Source of the DNA: Deltaproteobacteria bacterium
Lineage (GTDB): Bacteria > Myxococcota_A > UBA796 > GCA-2862545
DNA: 64,000 bases
Direction of reading: 5' to 3'
Assembly (NCBI GenBank): GCA_016938035.1
Contig: JAFGVK010000181.1
Location: 1-64,000 of the forward strand
Shown: in pieces, positions 6,118 to 12,928 of the stretch
Numbering within the stretch: the first letter of the stretch is position 1
Layout: the number at the start of each line of letters is the position of its first letter
The notes under the pieces: generated by a model
Databases searched by the model: none
Seen by the model: only the letters and a program-made list of their open reading frames with translations
What the model was told of the DNA's origin: nothing
Position numbers and translations under genes: made by a program

Positions 6118-6585
6118 ATGAAGCAGCCCACCTCAGCCGCCCGGGTGGTGGAGGCGCCTGCGCGGCCCGCCGGCCCCGCCCCGGCCGCCGACACCCCCTC
6201 GGAGCTCACCGTGCAGGGCAGCCCCCGTGGCGCCGTGGTCCTCCTCGACGGCGGTCCGCTCGGGACCCTACCCCTGAGTCACGCGCTCGAGGCGGGCACC
6301 CACACCGTGTCCGTGCAGCGCGAGGGCTTCGCCTCCTACAGCCAGGAGATCACCCTCCGCCCCGGCGCCTCGCTGGCGATACAGGTGGCGCTGGCCGCTG
6401 TGCCCGCCCCCGAGGAGGCTTCGGCCCCCACCCGCCTGGACGCCGCACCGGCCGAGGACTGGCGTCCCGCCCGCCTGGGCAGCGAGGACGCCGGCGCCAG
6501 CGCGCTCCGGGACCCCTTCGCCGCTGAGGCACAGGGCGCCGCCACCCCGAGCGAGAAGCTCGCCGACCCCTTCGCGAACCCCTGA
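6118..6585 (+). CDS. PEGA-domain tail, in frame with the preceding kinase
   Basis: This 155-residue frame (open from 6079, first ATG at 6118) is in the same phase as the kinase and is separated from it only by the TAA at 6076-6078. Residues about 27-95 form a PEGA domain (SELTVQGSPRGAVVLLDGGP, then GTHTVSVQREGF), a periplasmic beta-rich module common at the C-terminus of myxobacterial kinases and lipoproteins. It has no signal peptide and no ribosome binding site at 6118, so it is unlikely to be a functional separate gene. It is either the detached tail of a pseudogenised kinase, the product of stop-codon readthrough, or the result of a sequence error. Confidence 0.6.
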   Translation: MKQPTSAARVVEAPARPAGPAPAADTPSELTVQGSPRGAVVLLDGGPLGTLPLSHALEAGTHTVSVQREGFASYSQEITLRPGASLAIQVALAAVPAPEEASAPTRLDAAPAEDWRPARLGSEDAGASALRDPFAAEAQGAATPSEKLADPFANP

Positions 6586-6617
6586 TGCCCCCGACTCTCC
6601 CACAGACGGAGCTCCCT

Positions 6618-7919
6618 ATGAAGTCACCGTGGCCCGCGCTGGCGCTCCTCGCGCTCGCGGCCTGTCAGCAGCCGACCCTGCCCGACGTGGAGGGAGATCC
6701 CCTCTTCGACGGCGGCGACGGGCTCACCGCCTCCTTCGACCGCGTCGTCAGCGGCGAGATCACCGAGGACCTCACCCTCGACGCCGAGGAGCCCTGGATC
6801 CTCGACGGCCGGGTGGTGGTCACCGACGGCGCGACCCTCACCGTCGAGGCCGGGGCGACCGTCTACGGCAACCCGGTGACCCGGGGCACGCTGGTGATCG
6901 GCCAGGGCTCCCGCATCGTCGCCGAGGGCACGGCGGCCCAGCCCATCGTCTTCACCTCCCCCCGGGCCCGCGGGGCACGGCGGGCCGGCGACTGGGGCGG
7001 CCTAGTGCTCAACGGCTACGCGCCGGTCAACAACTGCGAGGGCACGCCCTGCACCGCCCAGGGCGAGGCGGAGACCGGCACCTACGGGGGGAGCGACCCC
7101 GAGGACGACTCCGGGGTGCTCCGCTACGTGCGCGTCGAGTTCGCCGGCGCCCTGGTCGACACCGAGAACGAGCTCAACGGCATCTCCTTCCAGGGGGTCG
7201 GGAGCGGCACCGCCGTAGACTACATCCAGCTCCACGAGACCTCCGACGACGGCATCGAGTTCTTCGGGGGCACGGTGGACGTCCGGCACGTGGTCATCAC
7301 CGGCGCCGGCGACGACTCCCTCGACTGGACCTACGGCTGGCGGGGACGCGCTCAGTACGTCGCCATCCAGCCTCACCCGGGCAGCGGCGACCGCGGCATA
7401 GAGGCGGACAACAGCGGCTCCTCCATGGACGCCCTGCCCCGCTCCGCCCCGGTCATCGCCAACCTGACCATGGCCGGCCACGAGGGAAGCGGCATCGGGA
7501 TGAACCTCCGCCGCGGCACCGGCGCGGGGATCTTCAACAGCATCCTCACCGGCTACGACGTCTGCCTAGACATCGACGACGACCCCACCTGGGCCAACGG
7601 CCTCACCGATCCGGAGACCCTGTCGGGGGACCTGATCGTCGCCGGCTCCTGGCTCGACTGCCCCGCCCTGGGCTCGACGAGCACCTGGAACGCGGTCACC
7701 GTCGAGGACTTCCTCGCCATGAACCAGGCGAACGTCTACCAGGCGCCGCTGCTGGCCGACGGACAGGACGCTGACTCCCCCGAGTGGACCCCCACCGCCG
7801 CCGGCACCGACACCGGCGCCCTCGCCCTCGAGGACGAGTTCTTCGAGATCACTGACTTCGTCGGCGCCATCGGCGACGATGACTGGACCACCGGCTGGAC
7901 GCAGAGCGGGACAGACTGA
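6618..7919 (+). CDS. Secreted lipoprotein with right-handed beta-helix
   Basis: A 433-residue protein. ATG 6618 is preferred over 6585 because it gives a clean lipoprotein signal peptide MKSPWPALALLALAAC with the lipobox cysteine at 16. The mature part repeats strand-turn units (TVEAGATVYGN, GSRIVAEGTAAQPIVFTS, DDGIEFFGGTVDVRHVVITG, GDDSLDWTYGWRG) typical of parallel beta-helix / PbH1 proteins that are exported in Bacteroidetes and Myxococcota. No catalytic residues can be assigned. It lies 32 bases after the kinase-PEGA frame and overlaps the next gene by 1 base (TGATG), so it is part of the run 4624-10040 and may act with it at the envelope. Confidence 0.75.
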   Translation: MKSPWPALALLALAACQQPTLPDVEGDPLFDGGDGLTASFDRVVSGEITEDLTLDAEEPWILDGRVVVTDGATLTVEAGATVYGNPVTRGTLVIGQGSRIVAEGTAAQPIVFTSPRARGARRAGDWGGLVLNGYAPVNNCEGTPCTAQGEAETGTYGGSDPEDDSGVLRYVRVEFAGALVDTENELNGISFQGVGSGTAVDYIQLHETSDDGIEFFGGTVDVRHVVITGAGDDSLDWTYGWRGRAQYVAIQPHPGSGDRGIEADNSGSSMDALPRSAPVIANLTMAGHEGSGIGMNLRRGTGAGIFNSILTGYDVCLDIDDDPTWANGLTDPETLSGDLIVAGSWLDCPALGSTSTWNAVTVEDFLAMNQANVYQAPLLADGQDADSPEWTPTAAGTDTGALALEDEFFEITDFVGAIGDDDWTTGWTQSGTD

Positions 7920-8674
7920 TGCGCTACCTCACCTTGCTCTGGCTGGCCCTCGCGCCGGCCGCCCTCGCCCAGGACGGCGATTTCGACTCCGCCAAGGCGC
8001 TGTACCAGGCGGGCGTGCAGAAGTACGACGCCGGCAGTGTCGACGAGGCCATCGCCCTCTGGGAGCGGGCCTTCGAGATGTCACCCGTTCCGGGCATCAT
8101 GTACAACATCGCCTTCGCCCATGACGAGCGCGGCGACAGCCAGCAGGCCCTCGAGGCGTGGCGCGCCTACCTCGAGGTCGCACCGGAGGCGGATCAGGCG
8201 AAGACCCGGACCCGCATCCGCGAGCTGGAGCTGATCACCGCAGCGCTGAGCGCCCCCGCCCAGGGGGTCCAGCAGCCCCCTCCCCCTGCGGTCCCCGTAC
8301 CCGACAGCAGCCCCCTCGCCGAGGTCCCCGCGGCCGGCCTCGGCAGAGGCGTCACCGTCGCGGCCCTCGGGCTGAGCTCCCTGGGGAGCCTGGGCGGCGG
8401 CAGCTACATGGCGCTCCACGCCTGGCAGCGCGCGGTCACCGCGGCCGAGCTCGGCTGCGTGACCTCCGGGGGCGCGACCCTGTGCGACGCGGACACCCAG
8501 GCCCGCCTCGACGAGGAGCGGGGGACCTGGACCGCCGGCTCCGCGCTCGCGGGCGCGGGCGTCCTCCTCGGCGCCGCCGCGGTGATGACCGCGCGCGCTA
8601 GCGAGGGCGACGAGCCCGATGCGGTGTCCCTCATCCTCCAGCCCACGGGAGCGGCACTCCATGCGCGGTTCTGA
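7919..8674 (+). CDS. Exported TPR protein
   Basis: A 251-residue protein with signal peptide MRYLTLLWLALAPAALA. Residues 20-110 hold TPR units (SAKALYQAGVQKYDAGSVDE, then PGIMYNIAFAHDERGDSQQA) like those in myxobacterial periplasmic TPR proteins found beside Ser/Thr kinases. A proline-rich linker near 115-140 is followed by two hydrophobic stretches (about 143-168 and 203-223) that could be membrane segments. Its ATG overlaps the stop of the upstream lipoprotein gene and its own end overlaps the next start by 14 bases, so translation is probably coupled. A scaffold role at the envelope is inferred. Confidence 0.75.
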   Translation: MRYLTLLWLALAPAALAQDGDFDSAKALYQAGVQKYDAGSVDEAIALWERAFEMSPVPGIMYNIAFAHDERGDSQQALEAWRAYLEVAPEADQAKTRTRIRELELITAALSAPAQGVQQPPPPAVPVPDSSPLAEVPAAGLGRGVTVAALGLSSLGSLGGGSYMALHAWQRAVTAAELGCVTSGGATLCDADTQARLDEERGTWTAGSALAGAGVLLGAAAVMTARASEGDEPDAVSLILQPTGAALHARF

Positions 8675-10040
8675 CCTCATCCCCGCCCTCGCGCTGGCCC
8701 TCGGACTGGCCGGATGCGCTCCCATCACGCCCGACGCCTGCACCTCGGACGCCCAGTGCGTCGAGGCCTTCGGCTGGGGACACGTCTGTGACGACGAGGC
8801 CACCTGTGCGGCGGTCCAGCCCACCTACGCCTGCGCGGCGGCCTGGCCGGAGGACCTGTGGACCGAGCGGGACGCCCACCGGAACGACCTCGTCATCGGC
8901 GCCCTCGTCGACAGCGAGCGCTATCCCGTCGAGCGCGCCTCGATGCGCCTGGCGGTGGACCAGATCAACGACCTCGGGGGAATCGACGGCCGGGACGTCG
9001 CGCTGGTGGAGTGCGACGTCGCCGCTCTGGATAACCAGGATCACGCGGACGCCATCCAGGGCATCGGCGGGTACCTCACCGGCAGCGTGGGGACTCCGGT
9101 CACCCTCGGGCCGATCTACAGCTCGGACGCCACCGCGCTCCTGGAGGGGACCAGCGAGCTCGTCGCGGTCTCCCCCTCGGCCTCCGGCCTGCTCCTCGAC
9201 GCCGCCCGGACCGAGGCAGCGGCCCAGGTCTGGCGGATGGTCCCCTCCGACCTGAACAACGCCCAGTCCTTCGTCCGCGACATGCTCGCCGAGGGGCTGA
9301 TCTCGCTGGCGATCGTCCACTCGCGGGACGACAACCAGTCGTCCCTCGCCGAGCAGCTGGTGGCCGACCTCGACCTCGCCGGGCTCCGCAGCGAGACCTT
9401 CGACTACGGCTCCGAGACCGAGCGCAACGCCCAGCTGGTCGAGGCGGCCTACGCCAACACCGACGCGGTGGCGCTGCTCTCCGAGGACCCGGACGACTAC
9501 GTCGAGTTCGTCCGCTCCGCCGACACCATAGGCTCCCTCGCCGACCGGGTCCTGTACGTGGGCTCGGGCGCCTACCGGGAGGACTTCCTCACCCAGACCG
9601 AGGGACTCGCCGCGCTGGACCAGGTGCGCGGCGTTCGCCCCGCGCCCCGTGAGGGCGCGGTCGCCGACGTGTTCCGCGCCTCCTACAGCTCCGCCTATGA
9701 CGGGGCGAGCCCGGACGAGGGCTCCTTCGCGGCCCACAGCTACGACGCGGCCTGGATGACCTTCGCCGCGGTGAGCTGGAGCGGGATGCGCTACGGCGCG
9801 CTCAGCGCGACGGGCGTCGCCGAGGGCCTGGGCAGCCTCTCCTTCGGCAGCCCCCTCTCCCTGGGACCCTCCGCCTGGTCGGACCTCACCGAGGTCTTCG
9901 CTGGTGCCGAGACGGTGGACCTAGAGGGCGCCTCCTCCTCAGTCGACATCGACCTGGCCACCCGCGCGGTCCGCGCCCCGGTCGCGGTGTGGATCGTCGG
10001 CGAGGAGGGCTTCGAGGACGTGCGCGAGTTCTCCTTCTGA
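8661..10040 (+). CDS. Lipoprotein of the type 1 periplasmic-binding fold
   Basis: A 459-residue protein. ATG 8661 gives the lipoprotein signal MRGSDLIPALALALGLAGC; the start overlaps the upstream gene by 14 bases. From residue about 75 the pattern IGALVDSERYPVERASMRLA then VDQINDLGGIDGRDVALVEC matches the ligand-binding receptor family (Peripla_BP_6, LivJ-like); VTLGPIYSSDATALLEG and VSPSASG continue that fold. A short Cys-rich segment (residues 25-60) precedes it. There is no ABC permease nearby, so it more likely works as a ligand sensor or binding lipoprotein together with the kinase gene at the start of this run. Ligand unknown; amino acids are usual for the family. Confidence 0.8.
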   Translation: MRGSDLIPALALALGLAGCAPITPDACTSDAQCVEAFGWGHVCDDEATCAAVQPTYACAAAWPEDLWTERDAHRNDLVIGALVDSERYPVERASMRLAVDQINDLGGIDGRDVALVECDVAALDNQDHADAIQGIGGYLTGSVGTPVTLGPIYSSDATALLEGTSELVAVSPSASGLLLDAARTEAAAQVWRMVPSDLNNAQSFVRDMLAEGLISLAIVHSRDDNQSSLAEQLVADLDLAGLRSETFDYGSETERNAQLVEAAYANTDAVALLSEDPDDYVEFVRSADTIGSLADRVLYVGSGAYREDFLTQTEGLAALDQVRGVRPAPREGAVADVFRASYSSAYDGASPDEGSFAAHSYDAAWMTFAAVSWSGMRYGALSATGVAEGLGSLSFGSPLSLGPSAWSDLTEVFAGAETVDLEGASSSVDIDLATRAVRAPVAVWIVGEEGFEDVREFSF

Positions 10041-10061
10041 TCCGATCAGAGCGCACCCACA

Positions 10062-10094
10062 GGGGCCGCCCCGGCGCGGAGACCGGGCGGTCCC
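10062..10094 (+). terminator. Strong GC hairpin after the binding-protein gene
   Basis: GGGGCCGCCCCGG (from 10062) can pair with CCGGGCGGTCCC (to 10094) with one mismatch and one bulge. It follows the stop at 10040 by about 20 bases. There is no T-tract, as is usual in such GC-rich genomes, so it is a candidate end of the 4624-10040 transcript. Confidence 0.4.
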
Positions 10095-10156
10095 GTCACT
10101 CAGACCCCTGACCACCGGTCGCACGGGTGATAGCCCCTCCCCCAGAGGATTCCGCC

Positions 10157-11164
10157 ATGCCTACCAGCCGCAGAGATTTCCTGAAGTACCTCGCCGCGTC
10201 CACCCTGGTCGTCCAGGGCTCCTTCCTGACCGCCTGCGGCCCCAAGGGCGACACCGGCGAGGAGGGCCCCTCGCTGACCTTCGCGGTGCTGACCGACCTG
10301 CACTTCAACAAGAAGGTCGACCACGTCAACAACCAGACCTTCCGCGCCGGGCTCGCCAAGGTCGCGGCGCTCGGCGTCGACCTCGTCCTCCTCACCGGCG
10401 ATCTCCTCGACGAGCTCCCCAGCGACGACCCGGCCTACTACGAGGAGCACACCGACACCGCGCTGCACCACCTCAAGGCCGCCCTCGCCGAGGCGCAGGT
10501 GCCGGTGCTCGCCACCCTGGGCAACCACGACTTCTACCTGGCGGACGGCAGCCTGGGGAACCACACCACCCCGGAATTCGAGGCCCGCCAGGACCTCCTC
10601 CTGGAGCACCTGGGCCTGCCCGCCCCCTGGTACCGCGAGGACCACGGCGGCGTCGCCTTCTACATGCTCTCCTCGATGCAGGCCGACGACCGGGTAGACT
10701 GGGAACCCGGCCTCACCGGGAGCTTCGGCGCGGAGCAGCTCGCCTGGCTGGAGGAGCAGCTCGCGGACGGGGTGCCCGCGGTGCTCGGCTTCCACCACCC
10801 CCTCGCCCTCGACAAGCTCGTCAGCGCGGGCATGGCGAAGTTCTCGTGCATGGAGGTCCCCCGCGACGAGGGCCACTACGAGAAATACGAGGGTGAGCCC
10901 TACGACGGCTGGACCGACCCCATCTACGACATCATCGAGGCACACTCGAGCCAGATCCTGGCGATCTTTGTCGGTCACTCCCACTGGTGGGCCCACGACC
11001 AGTGGGCGGGTGTGCCGGTGATGATGGGGGACTCTAGCGGCAACTCCATCCAGTTCACCGAGAAGGACGGCGAGCCGATGCGCTACCACCTGGGGCGGGT
11101 CTGGCTGGACGAGGGGCGCTTTGAGGTGTGGAACCTCGAGGACATTCCGCTTGAAGAGGGGTGA
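10157..11164 (+). CDS. Tat-exported calcineurin-like metallophosphoesterase
   Basis: A 335-residue protein. ATG 10157 starts a twin-arginine signal (PTSRRDFLKYLAAS) that ends in a cysteine (FLTACG), so it is probably exported folded and may be lipid-anchored. Metal-binding motifs of the family are all there: LTDLHFN (DxH), LTGDLLD (GD), LGNHDFY (GNH[DE]), GFHHPL and GHSHWW (GHxH). Such enzymes hydrolyse phosphomono- or diesters with two metal ions; the true substrate is unknown. The next gene, encoding a violaxanthin de-epoxidase-like protein, starts inside its 3' end, suggesting co-expression. Confidence 0.92.
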   Translation: MPTSRRDFLKYLAASTLVVQGSFLTACGPKGDTGEEGPSLTFAVLTDLHFNKKVDHVNNQTFRAGLAKVAALGVDLVLLTGDLLDELPSDDPAYYEEHTDTALHHLKAALAEAQVPVLATLGNHDFYLADGSLGNHTTPEFEARQDLLLEHLGLPAPWYREDHGGVAFYMLSSMQADDRVDWEPGLTGSFGAEQLAWLEEQLADGVPAVLGFHHPLALDKLVSAGMAKFSCMEVPRDEGHYEKYEGEPYDGWTDPIYDIIEAHSSQILAIFVGHSHWWAHDQWAGVPVMMGDSSGNSIQFTEKDGEPMRYHLGRVWLDEGRFEVWNLEDIPLEEG

Positions 11165-12089
11165 GCGCGCGGCGCGCCGCCTGGGCCTCGCCCCGCTGCT
11201 CCTCCTGGCGGGCCTCGCGACGGGCTGTGGGAGCGCCCGCGACGGGGCTCCGCCCCGCACCCTCGCCTGCGGGATGAGCCACTGCCCAGGCCCCCTCACC
11301 GCCTGTGGGGTGTCGGAGCGCTGTCGCGACACCCTGGACTGCAACCGGCGCTGCTCCGAGGCCCACCCCGACGGCGTGGGGGAGCAGACCTGTCACCTCC
11401 TCTGTCAGCTCGAGGAGGGCGTCGACAGCCGGCCCTACCGCCGGGTGGTGCAGTGCTTCGCGGACCACGCCTGCCTGCCCCGCGCCCCCGAGGGGCTCGA
11501 CGGGGCCTGCCCGGTCACCCCCGAGAACACGGGTTCCATCGTCCCCGTCGAGAGCCTCAGCCAGCTCGAGGGCACCTGGCTGGAGCTGCGGGGGCGCAAC
11601 TGCGGACGCCCAGACTCCACCTGGCAGGGGGGCTACGACCACCTGGGCTGCCGCAGCAGCTCCTGGGTGCCCGCGGGGGGCGACACCTGGTACCACACCT
11701 CCTTCGCCGGGAGCCGTGGCCCAGCCGGCCCCCACCCCTTCCTAGTGGCGGAGCCCGCGGTGGCCCCCGACGGCGGCCTGGAGGTCCACTACCTGAACCC
11801 GCCCCTCACCCCGCAGATCGAGCGGTGGTACGTCCTCTCCCGCCCCGACGACGACTGGATCGCCTACACCTACTGCGGCAGCACCCCCGCCGGCAGCTAC
11901 GCTGGCGCGAACATCATCACCCGCTCGGGCGTGTCCGCAGGCGCCGACATCCCCGCGGAGATCGCCGAGGCGATGCGCGAGGACCTCGCCCGCTTCGGCC
12001 TCGCCTGGGTGGATTTCTGTGACATCGACCACCGGGGCTGCGCGCCGCCCCGCGCTCGGGCAGAGGTCCTGCAGCGCGTGGCCGACTGA
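11151..12089 (+). CDS. Violaxanthin de-epoxidase (VDE)-like lipoprotein
   Basis: A 312-residue protein with start TTG 11151 (an alternative TTG is at 11121); both give a signal peptide ending LAGLATGC, a lipobox. Residues about 40-115 form a Cys-rich domain whose spacing equals that of plant VDE: C-x4-C-x6-C-x5-C-x5-C-x3-C, then C-x3-C, then two more Cys before a Pro. Next comes a lipocalin-like domain: GTWLELRGRNC near the start, then ERWYVLSRPDDDWIAYTYC and SYAGANIITRSG, matching the VDE blocks DDWYILSS..., DYIFVYY and GGAVVYTRSS. The Glu-rich C-terminal tail of plant VDE is missing. Plant VDE removes epoxides from violaxanthin using ascorbate in the acidic thylakoid lumen. Here the protein should sit in the periplasm or envelope. 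Substrate unknown; no carotenoid genes are in the window. Confidence 0.85.
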   Translation: MKRGERAARRLGLAPLLLLAGLATGCGSARDGAPPRTLACGMSHCPGPLTACGVSERCRDTLDCNRRCSEAHPDGVGEQTCHLLCQLEEGVDSRPYRRVVQCFADHACLPRAPEGLDGACPVTPENTGSIVPVESLSQLEGTWLELRGRNCGRPDSTWQGGYDHLGCRSSSWVPAGGDTWYHTSFAGSRGPAGPHPFLVAEPAVAPDGGLEVHYLNPPLTPQIERWYVLSRPDDDWIAYTYCGSTPAGSYAGANIITRSGVSAGADIPAEIAEAMREDLARFGLAWVDFCDIDHRGCAPPRARAEVLQRVAD

Positions 12090-12094
12090 GGGGC

Positions 12095-12928
12095 ATGAAG
12101 CACTCCCTGATCCTGGTGGTCCTGCTCTTGAGCTGTGGCGATCCCGCCCTGCCGTGGCCGTCCTCTCCGGTTCACCCGGAGCTAATCGGCGAGCCGGCGC
12201 GCCTGGCCGACCGAGGAGCGGCCCTCCAGCGCCTCGCCGGCCGCTACGGGCACTACGACGTGGTCGCCTACGAGGAGGTCCTGCGGGGGGCGCCGATGCG
12301 GACCTTTGTGATCTCCTACGGCATCACCGAGCTGATCCGCGAGGGGGACACGCTCCTCCAGCGCGACCGCTTCTGCCACGCCGAGCACCGCATCAACCGG
12401 GCGGGGATGCGCTCGTGGATGGAGGACGCTGCGGTTCGGGCCATCGTGCCCCCGGATCAGCCGGTGAGGCTGCGGGAGGAGGCGGGCCGCTGGTCACTCC
12501 ACCGCCCCGCCACCCCGACCCTCATCGGCGTGCGCGGCGACCCCTCACAGCCCCTGCCCGAGCGGCGGCGCGACCTCGACACCGTGGACGCAGACGGCGA
12601 CGGACGACCCGGTATCACCGTGCACCTGGAGGTCGAGCCGGGCCTGCGCGGCCGCGTCTGGATGGCCCGCCGGGAGATCTTTGAGGCCCACCTCACCCCG
12701 CTGGCCGACGGCCGCCTGGTGGGGCACGTGGAGGACCGCTCCGAGCAGCGCACCCTGGGGGCCTCGTCGCCGCTGTTCGCCGCAGAGGCCGATCCGCACC
12801 AGGTGGAAGACCCGGGCCTCAGCCCGCTGCTGCTGGTGCCCCTGCCTGACGAGGTGGACGGCTGTGACGCGCTGATGGCGCGGGCGGGGGAGCTATTTCC
12901 GGAGGCGCCAGGGTTCCTGGGGGACTGA
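12095..12928 (+). CDS. Lipoprotein of unknown function
   Basis: A 277-residue protein with a very short lipoprotein signal (MKHSLILVVLLLSC). It begins 5 bases after the VDE-like gene, so the two are almost certainly co-transcribed. The body holds CHAEHRINRAGMRSW, an EF-hand-like calcium loop DTVDADGDGRPG near residue 170, and a mixed beta-rich C-terminal half. I do not recognise a family. A partner role for the VDE-like lipoprotein is inferred from position only. Confidence 0.65.
   Translation: MKHSLILVVLLLSCGDPALPWPSSPVHPELIGEPARLADRGAALQRLAGRYGHYDVVAYEEVLRGAPMRTFVISYGITELIREGDTLLQRDRFCHAEHRINRAGMRSWMEDAAVRAIVPPDQPVRLREEAGRWSLHRPATPTLIGVRGDPSQPLPERRRDLDTVDADGDGRPGITVHLEVEPGLRGRVWMARREIFEAHLTPLADGRLVGHVEDRSEQRTLGASSPLFAAEADPHQVEDPGLSPLLLVPLPDEVDGCDALMARAGELFPEAPGFLGD

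Follow-up and report, generated by a model that had tools for sequence, protein, structure and literature searches.

The gene at 11151-12089 of the window, the whole 64,000-nucleotide stretch of DNA that was analysed, encodes a 312-residue bacterial lipoprotein that, as judged from its sequence, belongs to the violaxanthin de-epoxidase (VDE) superfamily and has the two-part build of the plant enzyme, a ten-Cys module followed by a lipocalin region. VDE is a light-protection enzyme of plants and algae. Homology to it over both domains is well supported; the residues of the bacterial protein indicate that it is not a canonical VDE. We give a probability of roughly 0.5 to the reading that it is a putatively exported, VDL/VDR-like lipoprotein, composed of a ten-Cys helical module and a VDE-type lipocalin, which would most likely take an isoprenoid as the ligand for acid-base chemistry. 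The VDE-like gene, its parts and its two immediate neighbours lie on the forward strand.

The Pfam VDE model (PF07137), with which the earlier note on this DNA had proposed to check the protein, matches it at 1e-11 with 45.2 bits, above the curated cut-off of 25.7, in two ordered stretches, an N-terminal one (profile 3-105) and a C-terminal one (profile 171-241). All ten Cys residues of the plant VDE N-terminal domain are kept (C-x4-C-x6-C-x5-C-x5-C-x3-C-x12-C-x3-C-x16-C-x5-C), and the spacing, claimed in the same note to be that of plant VDE, does match the ten Cys positions of Arabidopsis VDE (AtVDE; C9/14/21/27/33/37/46/50/65/72, PMC13181403). Cys spacing and AlphaFold pLDDT place the module at 11268-11474, and the Pfam match and the AtVDE alignment place the putative VDE-type lipocalin region, with a C-terminal helix and a CxP motif, at 11553-12050. 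The proposed line-up of the lipocalin blocks with those of VDE also holds: ERWYVLS...SYAGANIITRSGV of the bacterial protein aligns with DDWYILSS...GYGGAVVYTRSSV of AtVDE, and WYxLS...Y.G...YxGA...TRS..V...IP is shared in register. The local score of the lipocalin half against AtVDE (3cqn) is 66, compared to a mean of 29 (sd 4.7) for shuffled sequences, none of 1000 being as good, and BLASTP gives 8e-5 in a single comparison of the two. Residues 78-254 of the AtVDE sequence used agree letter for letter with PDB 3cqn. The Cys and catalytic positions of this sequence agree with PMC13181403, while one listed position, L135, reads I.

Of the Cys-rich domain plus lipocalin barrel foreseen for the fold, the former is modelled confidently by AlphaFold (AF2), being all helical with a pLDDT of about 84-95 in most 10-residue blocks, and the latter is not (pLDDT about 45). 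A rerun led by the second bacterial homologue, L009 (see below), left the lipocalin part no better. Foldseek with the AlphaFold model gave no match at E <= 0.001, the confidence of the model being too low for this result to have meaning.

The Cys domain alone is a common module of this bacterial phylum. Elsewhere in the phylum, Pfam VDE matches comprise the Cys domain only, and a search of the fetched loci by spacing found 92 distinct copies of the module in 64 loci; the same search in 178 kb of background loci found none. The module-bearing proteins (L004, L010, L011, L027, L032, L048 and others) are extracytoplasmic and mostly lipoprotein-like and carry one to several copies, often in tandem, joined in some to CGDGxCDxxE repeats and in one to an alpha/beta hydrolase. 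The module has neither a Pfam family of its own nor a solved relative; Pfam tags some of the module-only proteins as "VDE lipocalin domain" despite the absence of a lipocalin. An HMM of 56 bacterial copies, with those of the window and L009 left out, scores AtVDE at 34.4 bits, while for 500 shuffles with the Cys residues fixed the mean is 12.8 and the highest score 26.1. Since the loci had been picked by the VDE model, the test was redone with 24 copies that this model had not picked, which gave 28.0 bits for AtVDE (shuffle maximum 25.6); with the same HMM the window module stands out less, 13 of 500 shuffles reaching its score. Between the cysteines, the consensus of the bacterial copies has L after C9, N-P before C27 and L after C33, and is near the plant CLLKGC...CIANPACAANVACLQTC. 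The module by itself carries many bacterial proteins past the Pfam VDE cut-off, as would be expected if the protein were a Cys-rich lipoprotein of bacteria that matches VDE in its C-terminal half by chance, but the independent match of that half to 3cqn, unequalled by any shuffle, and its motifs in register make such convergence very improbable.

The VDE-like ORF starts with TTG, with GAGGA eight bases upstream. Its residues 1-25 (11151-11225; KRGERAARRLGLAPLLLLAGLATG) form a predicted lipoprotein signal peptide (LLLLAGLATGC) and are followed by the codon of Cys26 (11226-11228). The lipobox, which is not ideal, and the absence of the Glu-rich C-terminal domain, the protein stopping shortly after a CAPP motif, were both seen as described earlier. 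The protein is accordingly predicted to be lipid-anchored and extracytoplasmic. The neighbours, too, are those that had been described: the VDE-like gene shares 14 bases with the 3' end of a gene (10157-11164; 10157 being the more likely start from start codon context) encoding a Tat-type calcineurin-like metallophosphoesterase with a lipobox (Pfam Metallophos 6.4e-11), and six bases after its stop a lipoprotein gene begins (12095-12928; lipobox LLSC), for which Pfam and NCBIfam searches returned no family. The metallophosphoesterase neighbour was found in none of 20 genomes of the same family at E 1e-20. The stretch 6585-12928 is a run of lipoprotein genes, one of which (8619-10040) encodes a branched-chain amino acid type periplasmic-binding domain. 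With a GC3 of 0.933, the VDE-like gene matches its neighbours (0.90-0.95) and is hence native to the bacterium and adapted to it; the operon overlap and this GC3 speak against contamination or a eukaryotic gene, and both were rejected.

The functionally important residues of VDE were taken from a 2026 review (PMC13181403) and located by the AtVDE alignment. D163-x3-C167 (11637-11651) corresponds to D114-x3-C118, E224-x-W226 (11820-11828) to D177-x-W179 and Y241 (11871-11873) to the catalytic Y198. D114, C118, W179 and Y198 are thus kept, and the catalytic Asp177 is replaced by Glu, the residue that VDL and VDR carry at this position (PMC13181403). The ascorbate site is not kept as a whole, with D114 retained as D163 and Q119 replaced by R168, and the pH-trigger His121 is S170. 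E224, R168, S170 and the loss of the tail therefore mark a superfamily member that fails the defining features of an ascorbate- and pH-dependent VDE and that appears nearer to the VDL/VDR type, as this is described, than to the canonical enzyme. The reading of the gene as a VDE thus stands as far as homology of both domains goes; its enzymatic part stands only partly in view of D177E, Q119R, H121S and the lack of a strong ZEP-like monooxygenase match.

The host genome carries crtB, crtI and a lycopene cyclase gene (TIGR01790, 244 bits) on a contig other than that of the VDE-like locus, in a cluster (L067 1-20000, contig C8) that also contains CrtD-like and weak CrtC-like genes; carotenoids are therefore probably made by the host. 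The two loci have no clear link. A search of the genome (89% complete) with FAD_binding_3 for a zeaxanthin-epoxidase-type flavoprotein gave a best match of about 33 bits, far below what a true zeaxanthin epoxidase is expected to score. Zeaxanthin epoxidase is therefore unlikely to be present, and violaxanthin is unlikely to be the native substrate. Of the two gene sets that the earlier note had named for a search, the crt cluster was thus found and a strong epoxidase match was not. This bears on the idea that the protein is a canonical ascorbate-dependent violaxanthin/antheraxanthin de-epoxidase, obtained from an alga and acting on prey or environmental pigments. Its lipocalin half is nearer to AtVDE than that of the other bacterial homologue and the gene is almost unique in the phylum, both in line with such an origin, but the three substitutions, the missing Glu-rich tail, the weakness of the best flavoprotein match and the native GC3 render it improbable.

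We propose that in the lipid-anchored protein a disulfide-clamped ten-Cys helical module precedes a VDE-type lipocalin barrel, which would take in a hydrophobic isoprenoid, plausibly a carotenoid from the host's own crt cluster. Trp226 may stack on this ligand, and Glu224 together with Tyr241 could perform acid-base chemistry on its epoxide or hydroxyl end, as in VDL. VDL works without needing a reductant. Against this proposal stand the low pLDDT of the lipocalin part, the replacement of Q119 and H121, the missing link to the crt cluster and the fact that many lipocalins bind without catalysing. The acid E224, combined with a Tyr and a Trp inside a hydrophobic barrel, would fit acid-base isoprenoid chemistry or simple binding. 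The latter leads to a non-catalytic carrier, the barrel of which would bind and shuttle a pigment or lipid within the periplasm, while the Cys module would act as an unspecialised anchor or adhesion domain. Most lipocalins are binders (PMC13181403), the module is present in many unrelated extracytoplasmic proteins and the reductant site is not kept; the catalytic cavity, however, still has its acid, its Tyr and its Trp (E224, Y241 and W226), and we regard such a carrier as a possibility to be taken seriously, with the odds against it. On our preferred reading, that of a VDL/VDR-like lipoprotein, the protein probably binds, and perhaps acid-catalyses, a carotenoid or other isoprenoid.

Of about 590 genomes in the phylum, only the window genome (G000) and G135 have both domains together. 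A search of 70 further genomes of the class found no relative, and none was found among plasmids and viral contigs. Scans of the genome collection, to which exact short motifs only are visible, returned 24 stretches by alignment patterns, without a relative, and 10 by motif pattern, none of them VDE-like. A match in G513 (L051) at the C-terminal motif was rejected, as it made no coding sense. The G135 protein (L009, 335-1315, reverse strand) is a second full-length bacterial VDE-like protein (Pfam VDE 1.6e-13), about 25% identical to that of the window; their lipocalin parts show a weak likeness (2 of 1000 shuffles as good), and of the two, it is the window protein that lies nearer to AtVDE in this half. 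L009 shares with the window protein the Cys module, a lipocalin-like region, Glu at the D177 position and Trp at that of W179, and it keeps D114/D117/C118/Q119. Unlike the window protein, it has no equivalents of C14 and C65, does not keep Y198 (by hand alignment) and has an N-terminal membrane segment instead of a lipobox. The joint loss of C14 and C65 fits a predicted disulfide (1 in 9 for a random pair of the ten); L040 seems to miss C14 only. L009 adjoins a cluster of P450 and CoA-transferase (CaiB/BaiF) genes, with genes for an alcohol dehydrogenase and an AraC-type regulator nearby.

Coesel et al. (2008) searched 915 microbial genomes for the VDE Cys domain, found it in none and concluded that VDE is a eukaryotic invention, with a proposed origin by fusion of a protozoan Cys domain and a lipocalin after primary endosymbiosis (PMC2483416); the 2026 review places VDE in eukaryotes only and treats its origin as an open question (PMC13181403). 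No paper on prokaryotic VDE homologues was found in the literature, these two included. The present data contradict the absence of VDE homologues from bacteria. Eukaryotic VDE could conceivably, though this is rather unlikely, derive from a bacterial lipoprotein that arose by fusion of the common ten-Cys module with a lipocalin, the window protein being a surviving, isoprenoid-modifying, non-photosynthetic relative. The full architecture in bacteria and a module-rich phylum make the origin of VDE testable by phylogeny and biochemistry, and a minimal bacterial version, without the tail or the ascorbate site, could reveal the barrel's own role.

The ten-Cys modules elsewhere in the phylum share with the VDE-like protein the C-x4-C-x6-C-x5-C-x5-C-x3-C core, the later CxxxC and similar inter-Cys residues, but stand in proteins without a lipocalin domain. 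VDE of plants and algae (PF07137, PDB 3cqn/3cqr) agrees with it in having a ten-Cys module and a lipocalin region, as well as W179, Y198, D114, C118, WYxLS and TRSxV; it differs in having D177, Q119 and H121 (Glu, Arg and Ser in the window protein) and the Glu-rich tail, and in bearing a lumen transit peptide, whereas the window protein has a lipoprotein signal and a bacterial host. VDR, compared by description, likewise has Glu at the D177 position and keeps Y198, while its Cys residues reportedly differ in position and it had no pfam 07137 signature in 2008. VDL of chromalveolates, also compared by description, has a larger lipocalin domain and algal hosts, but resembles the bacterial protein in its Glu at the D177 position and in a Glu-rich tail that is reduced or absent.
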